A stretch of 5,259 nucleotides of DNA from Planctomycetota bacterium (lineage in GTDB: Bacteria; Planctomycetota; Phycisphaerae; SM23-33; FEN-1343): NCBI GenBank assembly GCA_013203365.1, contig JABMQG010000129.1:1-5259 (forward strand), written 5' to 3'. Made by a program: the position numbers and the translations under genes. Below the pieces are notes generated by a model, which ran no database searches, was not told the DNA's origin, and saw nothing but the letters and a program-made list of their open reading frames with translations. Positions 1-5,259 of the stretch are shown piece after piece. How positions within the stretch are numbered: position 1 is the stretch's first letter; every line of letters starts with the position of its first letter.

Positions 1-318
1 ATGGTCCGCTTTGGCAGCACCTCCGGTGACGGAGCCAGCACCTCCGGTGACGGAGCCAGCACCTCCGGTGACGGAGCCAGCACCTCCGGTGACGGAGCCA
101 GCACCTCCGGTGACGGAGCCAACACCACCGGTGACGGTATCAACGCCGCCGGCGAACAGGCAAAGGCCAGCCTCTCCGAGCATGTGAACAAGATGATGCA
201 ATCAGCCGGGCGGTGGGCCCTTTGGTTTGCCCGCGGCATCAATTGCAATTACCCGGCGGCATACGGCCCTAGCGCCACTGGCGGCGAGATCGCCAGTGCA
301 AACCTACCAGGCCTGTAG
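1..318 (+). CDS. Hypothetical protein with Ser/Thr/Gly/Asp heptad repeats (5' end uncertain)
   Basis: I do not recognise this protein. The visible 105 residues begin with an ATG exactly at the window edge, so it may be a complete small protein or the C-terminal end of a longer one. Residues 6-40 are five identical copies of the heptad STSGDGA. Two decayed copies follow in the same register (NTTGDGI, then NAAGEQA, residues 41-54). The rest is a non-repetitive tail of about 50 residues with a short amphipathic stretch (SLSEHVNKMMQ), an aromatic patch (RWALWF), one Cys and a Gly/Ala-rich end. No signal peptide, membrane helix or known domain is evident. Codon third positions remain G/C-rich through the tail, which supports real coding. 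It ends 28 bp before the GAF-HlyD gene and is probably co-transcribed with it. By position it could be a substrate or accessory of the downstream export proteins, but nothing in the sequence proves this. Confidence 0.6.
   Translation: MVRFGSTSGDGASTSGDGASTSGDGASTSGDGASTSGDGANTTGDGINAAGEQAKASLSEHVNKMMQSAGRWALWFARGINCNYPAAYGPSATGGEIASANLPGL
16..141 (+). repeat. Tandem 21-bp repeat (five perfect copies plus one degenerate)
   Basis: The 21-bp unit AGCACCTCCGGTGACGGAGC+C is repeated without a single mismatch at 16-36, 37-57, 58-78, 79-99 and 100-120. A diverged copy follows at 121-141. The next 21 bases (142-162) still match the heptad pattern at the protein level (NAAGEQA) but hardly at the DNA level. 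The unit is a multiple of three and in frame, so copy-number change would lengthen or shorten the protein without a frameshift. Identity at synonymous positions points to recent expansion by slippage or unequal recombination, with older copies decaying at the 3' side. Confidence 0.95.
276..298 (+). other. Potential RNA hairpin near the 3' end of the repeat-protein gene
   Basis: A perfect 8-bp inverted repeat, CACTGGCG at 276-283 and CGCCAGTG at 291-298, encloses a 7-base loop. It lies inside the last codons of the repeat-protein gene, about 50 bases before the GAF-HlyD start. No T-run follows, so it does not look like an intrinsic terminator. It could stabilise or process the mRNA, or could be chance in GC-rich DNA. 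Confidence 0.4.
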
Positions 319-346: not shown

Positions 347-2266
347 ATGTCACCGCAAGTTTCACCGTCGGCCCGCAACGTCGGCACCCCGCCGACGGCC
401 GAATTGATCGATAGGCTGAGCCGTTTCGACGGCCCGCCGGAGCTTTTTCTGGTCAACCTGCTGGCCGTGCAATGCCATTTGGCTTCGGCCGATGGCGGGG
501 CGATATTGCGCGCTTCTGGCAAGGGCGGGCAGTCGGAAGTGCTGGCGATTTACCCGCAGCTGGCAGAAGAGTCGGCCATACCGGTCTGGCTGGCCCAGGC
601 GGTGGAATTGGCCCCGCAGGTCGTCGCCGCCGGCGTCACGGCGGTCAATCCGCTCCACGGCCCCGACGACATGTATGGTCAAAGGCCTGGCCGATTCCTG
701 GTGATGGTCCCCCTGCGAGGCGGCCAGGGCGTGCGAGGCCTGGCCACCTACACGATACGCACAAGCGACCCGGCGGTGCTGGAGGCCGGGCGGGAACGAC
801 TGGAAATCACCGTCAGCCTGCTGAGCCTGTACGAAATGCGGCTGACGCTACAGCGGCGTCACCTGGACTTTCAGCGGGTGCGGACCGCCATGGAAACGCT
901 CTCAGCCATAAACGAGCACAATCGGTTCGCCGGGGCGGCGATGGCGGCGAGCAACGAGATTGCCGCGCGATGGCAGGCCGAGCGCGTCAGCTTTGGCGTC
1001 CTTAAGGGCCGATACGTTCATCTCAAGGCGACCAGCCACACCGAGAAATTCAGCCGAAAGATGAAACTCGTACAGGACATCGAATCGACTATGGAGGAGT
1101 GCCTCGACCAGGACGTCGAGGTCCTCTACCCGGCCTCGGCGGAGGTAGCCTACGCCAACCGCGCAGCCGGCGAGCTGTCGAAGCATCACGGCCCGTCGGT
1201 GGTGCTCAGCATGCCGCTTCGCTACGGCGGGGAGGTCCAGGCTGTGCTGACGGTGGAGCGCCCCAGCGACAGGCCGTTCGACCTGGAAGAAATCGAAACC
1301 CTTCGACTGACCGGCGAGCTGTGCACGGCCAGGCTGCTCAGTCTGCACGAAATGGACAGGTGGTTCGGCGCCAGGCTGGCCGCAACGGTGAGGAAGGGCC
1401 TGGCCGCCTTTCTTGGGCCCAAACACACATGGGCGAAGGTGGCGGCCATTTTGGTCTTCGCCGCCGTGGTGTTTCTCGTCTTCGCCAAGGGACAGTATCG
1501 TGTGCACTCGTCGTTTGCGATGGAGGCCATCGAGCGACGTATCGTGCCGGCACCCTACAACGGCGAACTGGCCAAGGTTTTTGTCGATCCTGGAGACCAG
1601 GTCAGTAAGGGCCAATTGTTGGCCCAACTCAAGAAAATCGAGATTGAGGTCCAACTTGCCAAGGCCAAGGCCGACCGCATAGGCCGCGAAAAAGAGCGAC
1701 AATCGGCCATGCAACAGGGCAAGCGGTTCGAAGAACAGGTGGCCGCCGAAGAGATCAAGAAGATCGCCGCCGAGATCGAGCTTCTGAGGCAAAGAATCGA
1801 TCAAGCCGATCTGGTGGCCCCGTGCGACGGGTACGTACTGGTCGGCGACCTGAAAAAGCAGATCGGGGCGCCCTTGGAGACAGGTACGCCGCTTTTTGAG
1901 GTCGGCCCGCTGGATTCGCTCCGCGCGGAACTGTCCGTACCGGAGGACCAGATCGCCGACGTTATCTCCGCAATGAAAAAGGCAACCGCCGCCGGCCGTG
2001 AAGTCGAGGGTGAACTGGCGACTGTTTCGGAGCCAGGCAGGCGAATCGAGTTCGTCGTCGAACGGATCATCCCCGTCGCCGAGGTGGTCGACCAGCGAAA
2101 CGTGTTCAAGGTCTGGGCCAGGCTGCAGGGTGTGGACCTTGGCAGGGAGTCCACCATGCGCCCCGGTTTGGAAGGCGTGGCGAAGATATCCATAGAACGT
2201 AGACGCTATGCGTGGATTTGGACCCGCAAGCCGGCTAACTGGCTGCGGATGAAGCTTTGGTTGTAG
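347..2266 (+). CDS. GAF-domain HlyD-family membrane fusion/adaptor protein
   Basis: This 639-residue protein is a predicted periplasmic adaptor with a large cytosolic front half. Residues about 36-165 and 185-335 look like two GAF-type alpha/beta regions, with strands such as FLVMVPLRGG and VVLSMPLRYGGEVQAVLTVE resembling GAF cores. The first is the less certain. One membrane helix spans about 364-380 (VAAILVFAAVVFLVF), preceded by basic residues, so the N-terminal part should stay in the cytosol. Next come a lipoyl half-motif (398-430, PAPYNGELAKVFVDPGDQVS), a short coiled-coil hairpin (about 430-486), the second lipoyl half (488-520, VAPCDGYVLVGDLKKQIG) and a beta-barrel region to about 615. 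The C-terminus is Trp/Arg-rich. In the HlyD family such proteins join an inner-membrane pump to an outer-membrane channel. Here the partner is more likely the M50-HlyD fusion 6 bp downstream, since no ABC or RND pump gene is in view. The start at 347 has an AGGA site and avoids overlapping the upstream gene. A ligand-sensing role for the GAF regions is inference. Confidence 0.88.
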   Translation: MSPQVSPSARNVGTPPTAELIDRLSRFDGPPELFLVNLLAVQCHLASADGGAILRASGKGGQSEVLAIYPQLAEESAIPVWLAQAVELAPQVVAAGVTAVNPLHGPDDMYGQRPGRFLVMVPLRGGQGVRGLATYTIRTSDPAVLEAGRERLEITVSLLSLYEMRLTLQRRHLDFQRVRTAMETLSAINEHNRFAGAAMAASNEIAARWQAERVSFGVLKGRYVHLKATSHTEKFSRKMKLVQDIESTMEECLDQDVEVLYPASAEVAYANRAAGELSKHHGPSVVLSMPLRYGGEVQAVLTVERPSDRPFDLEEIETLRLTGELCTARLLSLHEMDRWFGARLAATVRKGLAAFLGPKHTWAKVAAILVFAAVVFLVFAKGQYRVHSSFAMEAIERRIVPAPYNGELAKVFVDPGDQVSKGQLLAQLKKIEIEVQLAKAKADRIGREKERQSAMQQGKRFEEQVAAEEIKKIAAEIELLRQRIDQADLVAPCDGYVLVGDLKKQIGAPLETGTPLFEVGPLDSLRAELSVPEDQIADVISAMKKATAAGREVEGELATVSEPGRRIEFVVERIIPVAEVVDQRNVFKVWARLQGVDLGRESTMRPGLEGVAKISIERRRYAWIWTRKPANWLRMKLWL

Positions 2267-2272
2267 CCCAAT

Positions 2273-4480
2273 ATGCCCGTTGACCGCCCCACATTTAGCG
2301 AGTCCTGGTATCGCGTAGCCGCCCTCAGGCCTAGGCTGCGATCGACCGTGCAGGTGCATCGCCAGCACTATCGCGGACAGCTATGGTACGTCCTGCAGGA
2401 CCCGTCCAACAACCAATTCTATCGCCAGAACGAGGCGGCGTACCACTTCGTCGCCCTGCTGGACGGCCGGCGGACCATGGCGGAGGTGTGGGAGGCGTGC
2501 AACCAGCAACTCGGCGACAGCGCGCCCACACAGGGCGAGGCCATCCAACTGATGGGCCAATTGTACGCGTCCAACCTCATCCAGTGCGAACTGCCGCCCG
2601 ACGCACAGGGCCTGTTCCAGATGTACAAGAAACGCGTGCACAGGGAAGTCAAGAGCTACCTGACCAATCTGCTGTTCATTCGTATCCCCCTGATCGATCC
2701 CGACCGATTCCTCGAAAAGTGGGTCGGGGTTTTCGGGAAGATATTCACTTTATACGGGCTGGCAGTGTGGCTCGTGCTGGTATCTGTGGGGTTGTACTTC
2801 GTGATCGGCAAATGGGGGGCCCTCGCAAACCAGGCCGAGAGCGTCCTGGACCCGGCAAACCTGCCGCTGCTGTACGTGAGCTTCATACTGATCAAAGTCT
2901 TCCACGAGTTCGGGCACGCCTTCGCCTGTAAGAAGTTCGGCCTTCAGGCCGGCGGCGGCGAGGTCCACGTGATGGGCGTGATGTTCCTGGTATTCAACCC
3001 GCTGCCTTATGTGGACGCCTCCAGTTCCTGGGCCTTTCGCGAACGCCGCCGACGCGTGACCGTGGCCGCTGCCGGCATGTTCGTCGAGCTTGCCGTGGCC
3101 TCCATAGCGGCCGTCATTTGGGCCAGGACATCAACCGACAACCCCGTTCACGCCATCACCTACAACATGATGTTCATCGCCAGCGTCTCGACGGTGTTGT
3201 TTAACGCCAACCCGCTACTGCGTTTCGACGGCTACTACATATTGTCCGACCTGCTGGAGATTCCCAACCTCCGCCAGAGGGCCACGCAGTACCTGCAATA
3301 CCTGGTCAAGCGATACGCATGGTCGGTTCGGCACGCTCGTAACCCTGCGCACACGCAGGGCGAGCGAGCGTGGTTCGTCTTCTACGGCACGGCATCCACA
3401 ATTTACATGTTCTTCCTCTACAGCCGCATTCTGTTGTTCGTGGCCGACAAGCTGTTCTTTCTGGGAATGTTGCTGGCGATGGCGGCCTTTGTGATGTGGG
3501 TGCTGGTGCCGTTGGGTAAATTAGTGCGTTACCTCTTTACCAGTCCCGAGCTGATGCGCTCCCGCGGGCGGGCCATGCTATCGGTCATGGGCGTGCTGGC
3601 CCTTGCCGTGATCGGCTTCGGTTTGATCCCGGCCCCCGACCGCCATCGCGCCCAGGGCGTTGTGGAACCGGACATGATGATGGTGGTATATGCCCAAACC
3701 GACGGGAAGGTGACGAATTACCTCCCAAGCGGCGTGGTCGTTTCACCGGGCAACGAGCCGCTCGTCCAGGCGGAGAACCCCGAGCTGTCGGCCAAGAAGA
3801 AACAACTCTTGGTCGATCGCAACATAGCGGAAATCCGCCGCCGACAGGCCCAGGCCGAGGGAGAGACGGCCAAGTACCAGGCCCTGGGCGAACAGGTCGC
3901 GGCGTTGAACGAGCACATTGCACAGGTAACGCAGGAATTGGCCCACCTGACGGTCACGGCCAAAGTGCCCGGCACGTGGGTAGCGCCCAACATCGACCGA
4001 ATGCTGGGCGCCTACGCCAAGCGTGGCGATCGAATCGGGCTGGTGGCGAGCCTGGACGAACTCATCATTCGCTCAACAGCCACCCAGGACGAGGCCGTGC
4101 AGTTGATCGGCGAGGCACTCCGCGCAGGGGTGTTGAAGGCGGAAATCCGCGTCAAGGGCCGGCCCGACTTGACCTTTACCGGCTCGGCTGGACCGGAGGA
4201 CATCCGCAAGGCCGGCGGCAACCAGCTGCCCTCGGCGTCGCTCGGCTACAACGCCGGTGGTAGCATGGCCACCGCTTCGGACGATCGCCAAGGCATGAAG
4301 ACGACCGAGCGATTCTTCGAAATTCGCATCAGGCCGCAACTCGACAGCCAGGCTTCTCCGCCGGTTATTCTCCAACCAGGCCAACGCGTGGTGGTGCGTT
4401 TCGACATGCCCAACAAGCCGCTTATCGCACAGTGGTGGCGATCGCTGCTGCAGCTGGTTCAACGGAGGTTCAATGTCTGA
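2273..4480 (+). CDS. PqqD-like / M50 site-2-type zinc metalloprotease / HlyD fusion protein
   Basis: This 735-residue polytopic protein is of the 'putative peptide zinc metalloprotease' type. Residues about 24-107 form a PqqD-like domain (WYVLQDP, RQNEAAY, LLDGRRTMAEVWEA, APTQGEAIQLMGQL), a fold that binds leader peptides in RiPP systems. The membrane core follows: helices near 153-178 and 193-212, the zinc motif HEFGH (211-215), FNPLPYVDASSSW (241-253), helices near 264-284 and 297-310, and NPLLRFDGYY (313-322), which supplies the third zinc ligand region. Further helices lie near 367-389, 395-413 and 434-452. Residues about 458-715 are HlyD-like: lipoyl half (460-500), coiled-coil hairpin (505-560), second lipoyl half (561-600) and a barrel with a Gly/Ser-rich insertion (648-668). 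All expected catalytic residues are present, so proteolysis is plausible; family members may also act in export or self-immunity. The gene starts 6 bp after the GAF-HlyD stop with no clear Shine-Dalgarno site, suggesting translational coupling, and its last 8 bases overlap the SecA-like gene. Confidence 0.9.
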   Translation: MPVDRPTFSESWYRVAALRPRLRSTVQVHRQHYRGQLWYVLQDPSNNQFYRQNEAAYHFVALLDGRRTMAEVWEACNQQLGDSAPTQGEAIQLMGQLYASNLIQCELPPDAQGLFQMYKKRVHREVKSYLTNLLFIRIPLIDPDRFLEKWVGVFGKIFTLYGLAVWLVLVSVGLYFVIGKWGALANQAESVLDPANLPLLYVSFILIKVFHEFGHAFACKKFGLQAGGGEVHVMGVMFLVFNPLPYVDASSSWAFRERRRRVTVAAAGMFVELAVASIAAVIWARTSTDNPVHAITYNMMFIASVSTVLFNANPLLRFDGYYILSDLLEIPNLRQRATQYLQYLVKRYAWSVRHARNPAHTQGERAWFVFYGTASTIYMFFLYSRILLFVADKLFFLGMLLAMAAFVMWVLVPLGKLVRYLFTSPELMRSRGRAMLSVMGVLALAVIGFGLIPAPDRHRAQGVVEPDMMMVVYAQTDGKVTNYLPSGVVVSPGNEPLVQAENPELSAKKKQLLVDRNIAEIRRRQAQAEGETAKYQALGEQVAALNEHIAQVTQELAHLTVTAKVPGTWVAPNIDRMLGAYAKRGDRIGLVASLDELIIRSTATQDEAVQLIGEALRAGVLKAEIRVKGRPDLTFTGSAGPEDIRKAGGNQLPSASLGYNAGGSMATASDDRQGMKTTERFFEIRIRPQLDSQASPPVILQPGQRVVVRFDMPNKPLIAQWWRSLLQLVQRRFNV
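4464..4468 (+). promoter_or_regulatory. Ribosome binding site for the SecA-like gene
   Basis: GGAGG lies 4 bases before the ATG at 4473, inside the last codons of the M50 gene. It is the strongest Shine-Dalgarno match in the window and fixes the SecA-like start, giving an 8-bp overlap with the preceding gene. Confidence 0.75.
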
Positions 4481-5259
4481 CGTGACCGATCCGCCGAGCA
4501 CAACTTGGCGAATGCTCGCCCAGCGGATCGGCTCAGCGGAACTGCCCAAGGGCCTGGACGCCATCTGGGACGTTGCCGCCGGATACGCAAATCGCCTTGT
4601 GCCGCGGCGCAAGAGATATCTGCTGCTTGCCGACCAAGTGGTGGCGATGGAAGGACGGTTCAAGGACCTCACCGACGCCGGGCTGCGCCGCGAAATTGAG
4701 GGGATCCGCGAAATGTTCCTTCGCGGGCGCGAAACGCCGCCGATGCTGTATCGGGCCTTCGCCATCGTTCGCGAGGTCGACTTTCGGCAACTTGGGGAAC
4801 GTCCATACCCGGTTCAGGTAGCCGGCGCGATGGCGATCGAGGCCGGAAACGTCGCCGAAATGGCCACGGGCGAGGGAAAAACGCTCACGGCAACCATGCC
4901 GGCCACCATCGCCGGCTGGCGGGGCAAGGGCTGTCACATCATCACCGTAAACGACTACCTCGCCAAACGCGACGCCGAATGGATGGGCAAGGTCTACAAA
5001 GCCTGCGGGCTCACCTTCGACTACATCGAGGCCGGCATGCCGCCCGAACGCCGGCGAGCGGCCTACCTGGCGGACATAACCTACGCGACAAACAAGGAGG
5101 TCACCGCCGACTACCTCCGCGACCGCCTGGCGCTGGGCCGATTGGCTGGGCTGTCGTCGGTGCTGCTGACGAAGATCATCGACGGAGCCGGCAGCGGCAC
5201 CGACCGCGTGGTGCAACGCGGCCTTGCCCACGCCATTGTCGACGAGGCCGACTCGGTCC
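4473..5259 (+). CDS. SecA-family preprotein translocase ATPase (N-terminal part, runs off the right edge)
   Basis: The first 262 residues show an unmistakable SecA nucleotide-binding domain 1. The N-terminal helical region carries the usual REAFAVVRE-like segment as YRAFAIVREVDF (93-104). The Q-motif region is RPYPVQVAGAMAIE (110-123), Walker A is MATGEGKT (130-137), and the following motifs are HIITVNDYLAKRDAEWM (155-171), DITYATNKEVTADYLRDRL (201-219) and Walker B AIVDEADSV (254-262). SecA powers protein export across the inner membrane. Two features differ from housekeeping SecA: the box reads DEAD instead of DEVD, and about 20 extra residues (roughly 221-244) separate the DYLRD motif from it. 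With its place directly behind the HlyD and M50 genes, this suggests a specialised paralogue rather than the essential SecA. The preprotein-binding domain, second ATPase domain and C-terminus lie outside the window, so completeness cannot be judged. I give no gene symbol, because secA1/secA2 assignment needs the full protein. Confidence 0.93.
   Translation, partial: MSDVTDPPSTTWRMLAQRIGSAELPKGLDAIWDVAAGYANRLVPRRKRYLLLADQVVAMEGRFKDLTDAGLRREIEGIREMFLRGRETPPMLYRAFAIVREVDFRQLGERPYPVQVAGAMAIEAGNVAEMATGEGKTLTATMPATIAGWRGKGCHIITVNDYLAKRDAEWMGKVYKACGLTFDYIEAGMPPERRRAAYLADITYATNKEVTADYLRDRLALGRLAGLSSVLLTKIIDGAGSGTDRVVQRGLAHAIVDEADSV

Follow-up and report, generated by a model that had tools for sequence, protein, structure and literature searches.

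The 5,259-base contig JABMQG010000129.1 of a Planctomycetota bacterium (assembly GCA_013203365.1), analysed here at its full length and called the window in what follows, raises the question of why a gene for a SecA-type ATPase overlaps the gene of an M50 protease fused to an HlyD adaptor, directly behind a second HlyD gene. The original prediction was that a SecA-type motor may feed a substrate into a periplasmic conduit made of the HlyD and M50 proteins. Our analysis indicates that the window carries a portion of a conserved gene set, likely (with a probability of about 0.72) a dedicated exporter of large surface-type proteins bearing an N-terminal LEPR-XLL leader.

The candidate cargo carries the LEPR-XLL domain (NF012209), and its distribution follows that of the M50 gene. 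Among 60 relatives (the genome of the window counted) 31 had NF012209 matches, corresponding to 30 of the 46 with an M50 gene and only one of the 14 without. Three even samples of genomes were then considered, requested at a completeness of at least 90% and with the centre genomes added on top. M50 carriers were separated in them by a gap in the scores, with a cut chosen after the gap was visible (at least 608 versus at most 449 bits in Planctomycetota, at least 721 versus at most 405 in Verrucomicrobiota and at least 567 versus at most 452 in Gammaproteobacteria; one genome, G510, was counted from two pieces). LEPR proteins were found in 13 of 19 carriers versus 3 of the 176 remaining genomes in Planctomycetota, in 11 of 12 versus 1 of 132 in Verrucomicrobiota and in 17 of 22 versus 5 of 254 in Gammaproteobacteria, which pooled gives 41 of 53 carriers versus 9 of 562 others. 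Removing the genomes included for holding the gene set leaves P at or below 2e-12 in each sample, a value that ignores kinship. Furthermore, 25 of 39 genomes recorded as non-planctomycete with an M50 locus (three of them shared with the samples) had LEPR proteins, and NF012209 matched none of 14 well-known control genomes. The genome of the window itself codes for four LEPR proteins over the curated cut-off of NF012209, three of them with recognizable content (subtilase with immunoglobulin/cadherin domains; immunoglobulin/cadherin domains; DUF4347 with LCCL). Some LEPR frames are very long, reaching 20,466 codons in G302:C142, 19,216 in G305:C1 and 17,246 in G272:C80.

The two genes are also neighbours far more often than chance would give. 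From the 93 LEPR hits in the 53 carrier genomes, 17 genes were located within 10 kb of the M50 gene, versus 0.87 expected under random placement, and 16 of these 17 were on the same strand as M50. In two relatives LEPR is close to the module, immediately downstream of SecA (G015) or adjoining M50 (G059). Our own profile identified a LEPR frame in 14 of 80 loci from named records and in none of 20 loci from the relatives; the 14 include two weak rows (L146 and L178), with L070 (domain E 0.0095, no motif by eye) removed by hand and L147 (E 0.074) excluded.

The clearest arrangement was found on plasmids. The 12 closest plasmid copies of the M50 gene (tblastn, 32-37% identity) all have nearby a giant gene that starts with the LEPR motif, and all have GAF-HlyD before M50 and a secondary SecA after it. 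These copies represent about eight lineages, given the near-duplicates H2/H3, H6/H7 and H8/H10/H11, and frames that are split in two (the giant gene in H6 and H11, SecA in H10) were left as they are. In the Pontibrevibacter plasmid a 31.8-kb gene annotated as LEPR-XLL domain-containing is followed by DUF3467, HlyD, a PqqD-family protein, SecA and HlyD. The Pseudosulfitobacter plasmid has a 38-kb giant LEPR gene and the one of Methylosinus a 26.5-kb giant gene with SecA, HlyD and TolC at the other end, this SecA being annotated as a prepilin peptidase and identified as SecA by Pfam. The same arrangement was found on plasmids of Mesorhizobium, Rhizobium, Sinorhizobium, Ensifer, Alisedimentitalea, Pseudohalocynthiibacter and Rhodobacteraceae M382. 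On a Thalassospira plasmid there is a more distant, thirteenth copy; here the LEPR gene is accompanied by DUF3467, adaptors and TolC, with no SecA adjoining. On the Rhizobium johnstonii plasmid (L242 4495-12407) genes for a lantibiotic dehydratase and a LanC-family protein lie upstream of the giant LEPR gene on the opposite strand.

What the LEPR proteins share is a short motif near their start, with the consensus [L/F]-E-x-L-E-P-R-[L/V/I]-L-L-S-[A/G]-D. In 70 distinct starts, selected with a pattern requiring E-[PSQAN]-R and hydrophobic neighbours (so that E and R are at 100% by construction), the frequencies were 94% for both E at -3 and L at -1, 86% for S, 84% for P and 60% for D. At 30 LEPR loci outside Planctomycetota the motif lies mostly 9-60 residues from the likely start codon, after basic or polar residues. 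A 12-residue stretch with the hydrophobicity of a Sec signal, by a cut of our own, was present in 6 of the 70 LEPR starts versus 12 of 13 third-adaptor controls.

The gene set around M50 is itself widely conserved. Matches to M50 were found in 46 and to SecA in 58 of the 60 relatives. Scored by profile searches, the 20 loci, which come from 18 relatives, contained SecA in 20 cases, GAF-HlyD in 19, a third HlyD adaptor in 15 and DUF3467 in 14; they were chosen around M50 and SecA matches and their SecA count is no test of linkage. The 80 loci were fetched by the M50 gene alone (both sets partly overlap, e.g. L117/G010, L119/G016, L133/G008) and contained SecA in 71, GAF-HlyD in 70, the third adaptor in 54 and DUF3467 in 20, absences being soft because many of the contigs are short. 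The linkage of SecA and GAF-HlyD with the M50 gene thus exceeds chance. The hosts include planctomycetes, verrucomicrobia, proteobacteria, Nitrospira, Desulfobacterales, a gemmatimonad and a spirochaete, so that the neighbourhood, whose conservation had been proposed as a check of the original prediction, is kept far beyond close relatives. On plasmids the gene of the small DUF3467 protein separates the giant LEPR gene from that of the first adaptor, and in planctomycetes it adjoins GAF-HlyD (L223, L225, L226, L228, L231, L242 and the loci of relatives); the protein is possibly a chaperone or adaptor of the cargo.

In the window the following features were recognized:

347..2266, + strand: GAF-HlyD adaptor of 639 residues, with GAF and HlyD Pfam matches, kept beside the M50 gene in other loci
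2273..4480, + strand: RRE(PqqD)-M50-HlyD protein of 735 residues, combining a leader-binding-type domain, an intramembrane protease and a membrane-fusion adaptor
2324..2596, + strand: PqqD/RRE-like domain, residues 18-108 of the M50 protein, resembling lasso B1 and PqqD folds
2903..2917, + strand: HEFGH zinc-protease motif, residues 211-215 of the M50 protein, with H211, E212 and H215 invariant
3227-3229, + strand: aspartate ligand D319 of the M50 protein, invariant
3632..4450, + strand: membrane-fusion (HlyD/MacA/AcrA-like) part, residues 454-726 of the M50 protein
4473..5258, + strand: first 262 residues of the secondary SecA, beginning within the M50 gene and cut off at the contig edge
4866..4883, + strand: Walker A motif TGEGKT of SecA, with T-G-E-G-K invariant among relatives
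5241..5252, + strand: DEAD (Walker B) motif of SecA, invariant among relatives
1..318, + strand: end of an upstream reading frame cut at the contig edge, with a seven-residue tandem repeat STSGDGA, no Pfam family and no assignment to the module

The gene order, the 6 bp between GAF-HlyD and M50 and the 8-bp overlap of M50 and SecA (4473-4480) given in the original prediction were reproduced exactly from the reading frames. Its intact nucleotide-binding motifs of SecA are confirmed in the window for Walker A and DEAD; the remaining motor motifs lie beyond it and were seen in relatives and, for the end of SecA, on a fragment of the same genome. SecA_DEAD (237 bits), HlyD_3, HlyD_D23 and GAF were over the Pfam cut-offs.

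The M50 protein appears to combine a leader-binding-type domain with a protease. Peptidase_M50 (23.6 bits, cut-off 27.2) and PqqD (21.3, cut-off 23.4) remained below their Pfam cut-offs, and the NCBIfam daptide M50 model gave 178.6 bits, under its cut-off of 300. The predicted structure matches a site-2 protease, with HExxH and the downstream aspartate ligand in membrane helices as in M50 site-2 proteases, and H211, E212, H215 and D319 are invariant in alignments of 15 and of 20 sequences, the latter including the protein of the window. The modelled PqqD part has the three-strand, three-helix winged fold of the RRE (recognition element of ribosomally synthesized and post-translationally modified peptides, RiPPs); a Foldseek search with the RRE model alone gave no match below E 0.001. 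By its fold, and with conservation at beta3/alpha3, this domain is a putative binder of leader peptides.

The secondary SecA is a shortened one. A full-length copy aligns with residues 5-607 of the 783-residue solved SecA of Bacillus subtilis (3jv2), and in five copies Pfam found the DEAD, preprotein-binding and second P-loop domains and no SecA_SW. The protein therefore terminates early in the scaffold helix, with the wing and most of the scaffold missing. Given where the two-helix finger lies in SecA, it is lost as well. Contig C225 of the same genome opens with the last part of a secondary-type SecA gene (model positions 539-666), which terminates like the copies of relatives; probably this is the piece that the SecA gene of the window lacks, the two not being joined.

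With these parts, export could work as follows. At the inner membrane the LEPR leader would be bound by the PqqD/RRE domain of the M50 protein and cut by the site-2-type protease of that chain. A periplasmic passage leading to a TolC-type outer channel would be built from the HlyD portions of the M50 protein, of GAF-HlyD and of the third adaptor. The shortened SecA would give an ATP-driven push in most, not all, versions, and the inner membrane might be crossed by SecYEG or by the M50 protein itself. A bolder version, to which we give somewhat less than even odds, is a leader-guided secretion system outside the numbered types, in which the RRE-protease-adaptor protein reads and cuts LEPR and a SecA devoid of wing and two-helix finger drives proteins of up to 10,000 residues and beyond in one step through HlyD-TolC, possibly without SecY.

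SecA as the motor is the weakest step of the mechanism. Six of the 53 module genomes showed no secondary SecA, and four of them (G594, G599, G613, G510) still have a LEPR gene beside M50. The alternative that survives best, although we consider it rather unlikely, is that LEPR proteins are in truth exported by the RRE-M50-HlyD protein with its adaptors, while the secondary SecA only helps or regulates and is optional. The Thalassospira plasmid, with LEPR beside M50 and no SecA adjoining, would fit this, as would G499 and G702, which carry SecA elsewhere, and the four genomes that show none. Against it, the secondary SecA is present in 47 of the 53 genomes and beside M50 in 44 (both counted by eye) and in all 12 plasmid copies, and the motifs of its motor and ATP site are conserved among relatives. 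M50-HlyD loci with an adjoining LEPR gene and no adjoining secondary SecA were seen at L231 17699-24505 and in G499, G594, G599, G613 and G702; they are possibly a SecA-free version of the set. The dedicated export role in the original prediction is thus strongly, if indirectly, supported by the LEPR link, while SecA as the motor is likely but less secure, six genomes showing no secondary SecA.

A less probable alternative is that LEPR proteins leave by ordinary Sec or classical type I secretion and the SecA-M50-HlyD set acts after export in trimming, anchoring or quality control. Site-2 proteases process membrane proteins in other systems, which counts in its favour, and RTX and serralysin domains are typical of type I cargo. 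In a Vibrio genome paper (PMC10868602) a giant protein of about 8000 residues with LEPR-XLL as its N-terminus is described as carrying RTX and serralysin domains at its C-terminal end. The hydrophobic stretch in 6 of the 70 LEPR starts would also suit the Sec route, but a Sec-type core is missing in the other 64, and a gene row in which adaptors, an ATPase and sometimes TolC accompany the giant gene fits transport better than trimming.

It could also be argued that LEPR proteins and the module only share lineages or lifestyles, namely large genomes rich in surface proteins, with no joint action. The sampled genomes are related and Fisher P values overstate their independence, but the association was found separately in the three groups and LEPR and module occur together in 7 of the 10 module-bearing planctomycete families of the sample. 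In addition, LEPR and M50 genes are direct same-strand neighbours, also on plasmids, and we regard a mere coincidence of lineages as very improbable.

The same genome has a separate canonical SecA on contig C268, a frame of 1234 residues with SecA_SW, as the original prediction had suggested looking for. Most of the 60 relatives hold, besides a long canonical SecA, a secondary type that scores higher and mostly has a frame of 640-800 residues, the weakest secondary and best canonical scores nearly meeting. In the tree, also proposed as a check, 37 secondary SecAs from many phyla were split from 17 canonical ones (16 planctomycete and one from Escherichia coli K-12) by one long branch with FastTree support of 1.0 and ultrafast bootstrap of 100, so that the type found in the window groups apart from housekeeping SecA. 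The reading of this SecA as a plain copy of the housekeeping one that happens to lie near unrelated HlyD genes, for which only its retained motor motifs would speak, has next to no probability and is ruled out by the tree and by a neighbourhood conserved across phyla, besides the missing wing and scaffold. The canonical frames of the 16 planctomycetes (L246-L261) have 1163-1436 codons versus 904 in E. coli.

The gene set belongs to the secondary SecA module of Kamneva, Poudel and Ward (2015), with which it shares a SecA_DEAD protein beside GAF-HlyD and M50-HlyD genes, a SecA_SW missing or present as a fragment in relatives and a separate canonical SecA in the genome. In that paper (PMC4452313) the set is described as GAF-HlyD, M50-HlyD, a SecA without the full wing-scaffold, a further HlyD and sometimes OEP; SecA was proposed as the ATPase of a type I-like passage and M50 as a possible pore, and the broader biological role was termed completely unknown. 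Both the module and the idea in the original prediction had been published already. A search of the main text for LEPR, PqqD, DUF3467 and giant gave no match. Among the open-access papers that the searches listed, covered by titles and abstract starts, LEPR-XLL proteins are not linked with the gene set and no export route is named for them. Within the reach of these searches, the link to LEPR cargo, the interpretation of the M50 N-terminus as an RRE and the operons with giant genes are new.

Compared with type I secretion (HlyB-HlyD-TolC), the module shares the HlyD-type membrane fusion proteins and, in Methylosinus and Thalassospira, an adjacent TolC, which the window does not contain, but its conserved signal is N-terminal and not C-terminal and its ATPase is of the SecA type. 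No ABC (ATP-binding cassette) transporter was found in the window, in agreement with the original prediction, or among the module genes read, a search that did not extend to the rest of the genomes; sugar and peptide ABC genes occur further downstream of the module in two plasmid regions. As in the accessory Sec systems of Gram-positives (SecA2, SecA2-SecY2) there is a second SecA, here perhaps for a restricted cargo by association, but the hosts are diderms, SecA lacks the wing and most of the scaffold, and HlyD and M50 companions are present. SecY was absent from the annotated genes of the plasmid regions and was not searched for elsewhere. With RiPP leader recognition and daptide-type M50 maturation the module shares a PqqD/RRE-like domain next to a protease; it differs in that its cargo would be large to giant proteins and not peptides, and in that M50 and an HlyD adaptor are fused. 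The operon of R. johnstonii is the only one near which RiPP enzymes were seen. With a cargo class that can be named and has a short, sharply conserved leader, the orphan gene set of 2015 becomes directly testable. The finding would hint at the way in which many diderms, ranging from planctomycetes to rhizobia, bring some of the largest proteins predicted for them out of the cell, and would be a case of SecA acting together with a type I-like passage.

The window is the entire contig (C55), with no sequence to the right of it, from a genome that is 82% complete in 554 contigs. A cargo or DUF3467 gene was looked for by eye in its three forward frames and neither was seen, the tail at 1-318 matching no Pfam family. 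Downstream of SecA no conserved set was found in the class of the window, only three clusters of 3-4 loci each, mostly of one genus (g10). Their names, read from the sequences with no search, are HAD-like, PQQ-repeat-like and uroporphyrinogen-decarboxylase-like. Distant relatives of M50-HlyD (about 26% identity; tblastn hits H33-H58) were also found on plasmids of Escherichia, Citrobacter and Hafnia.
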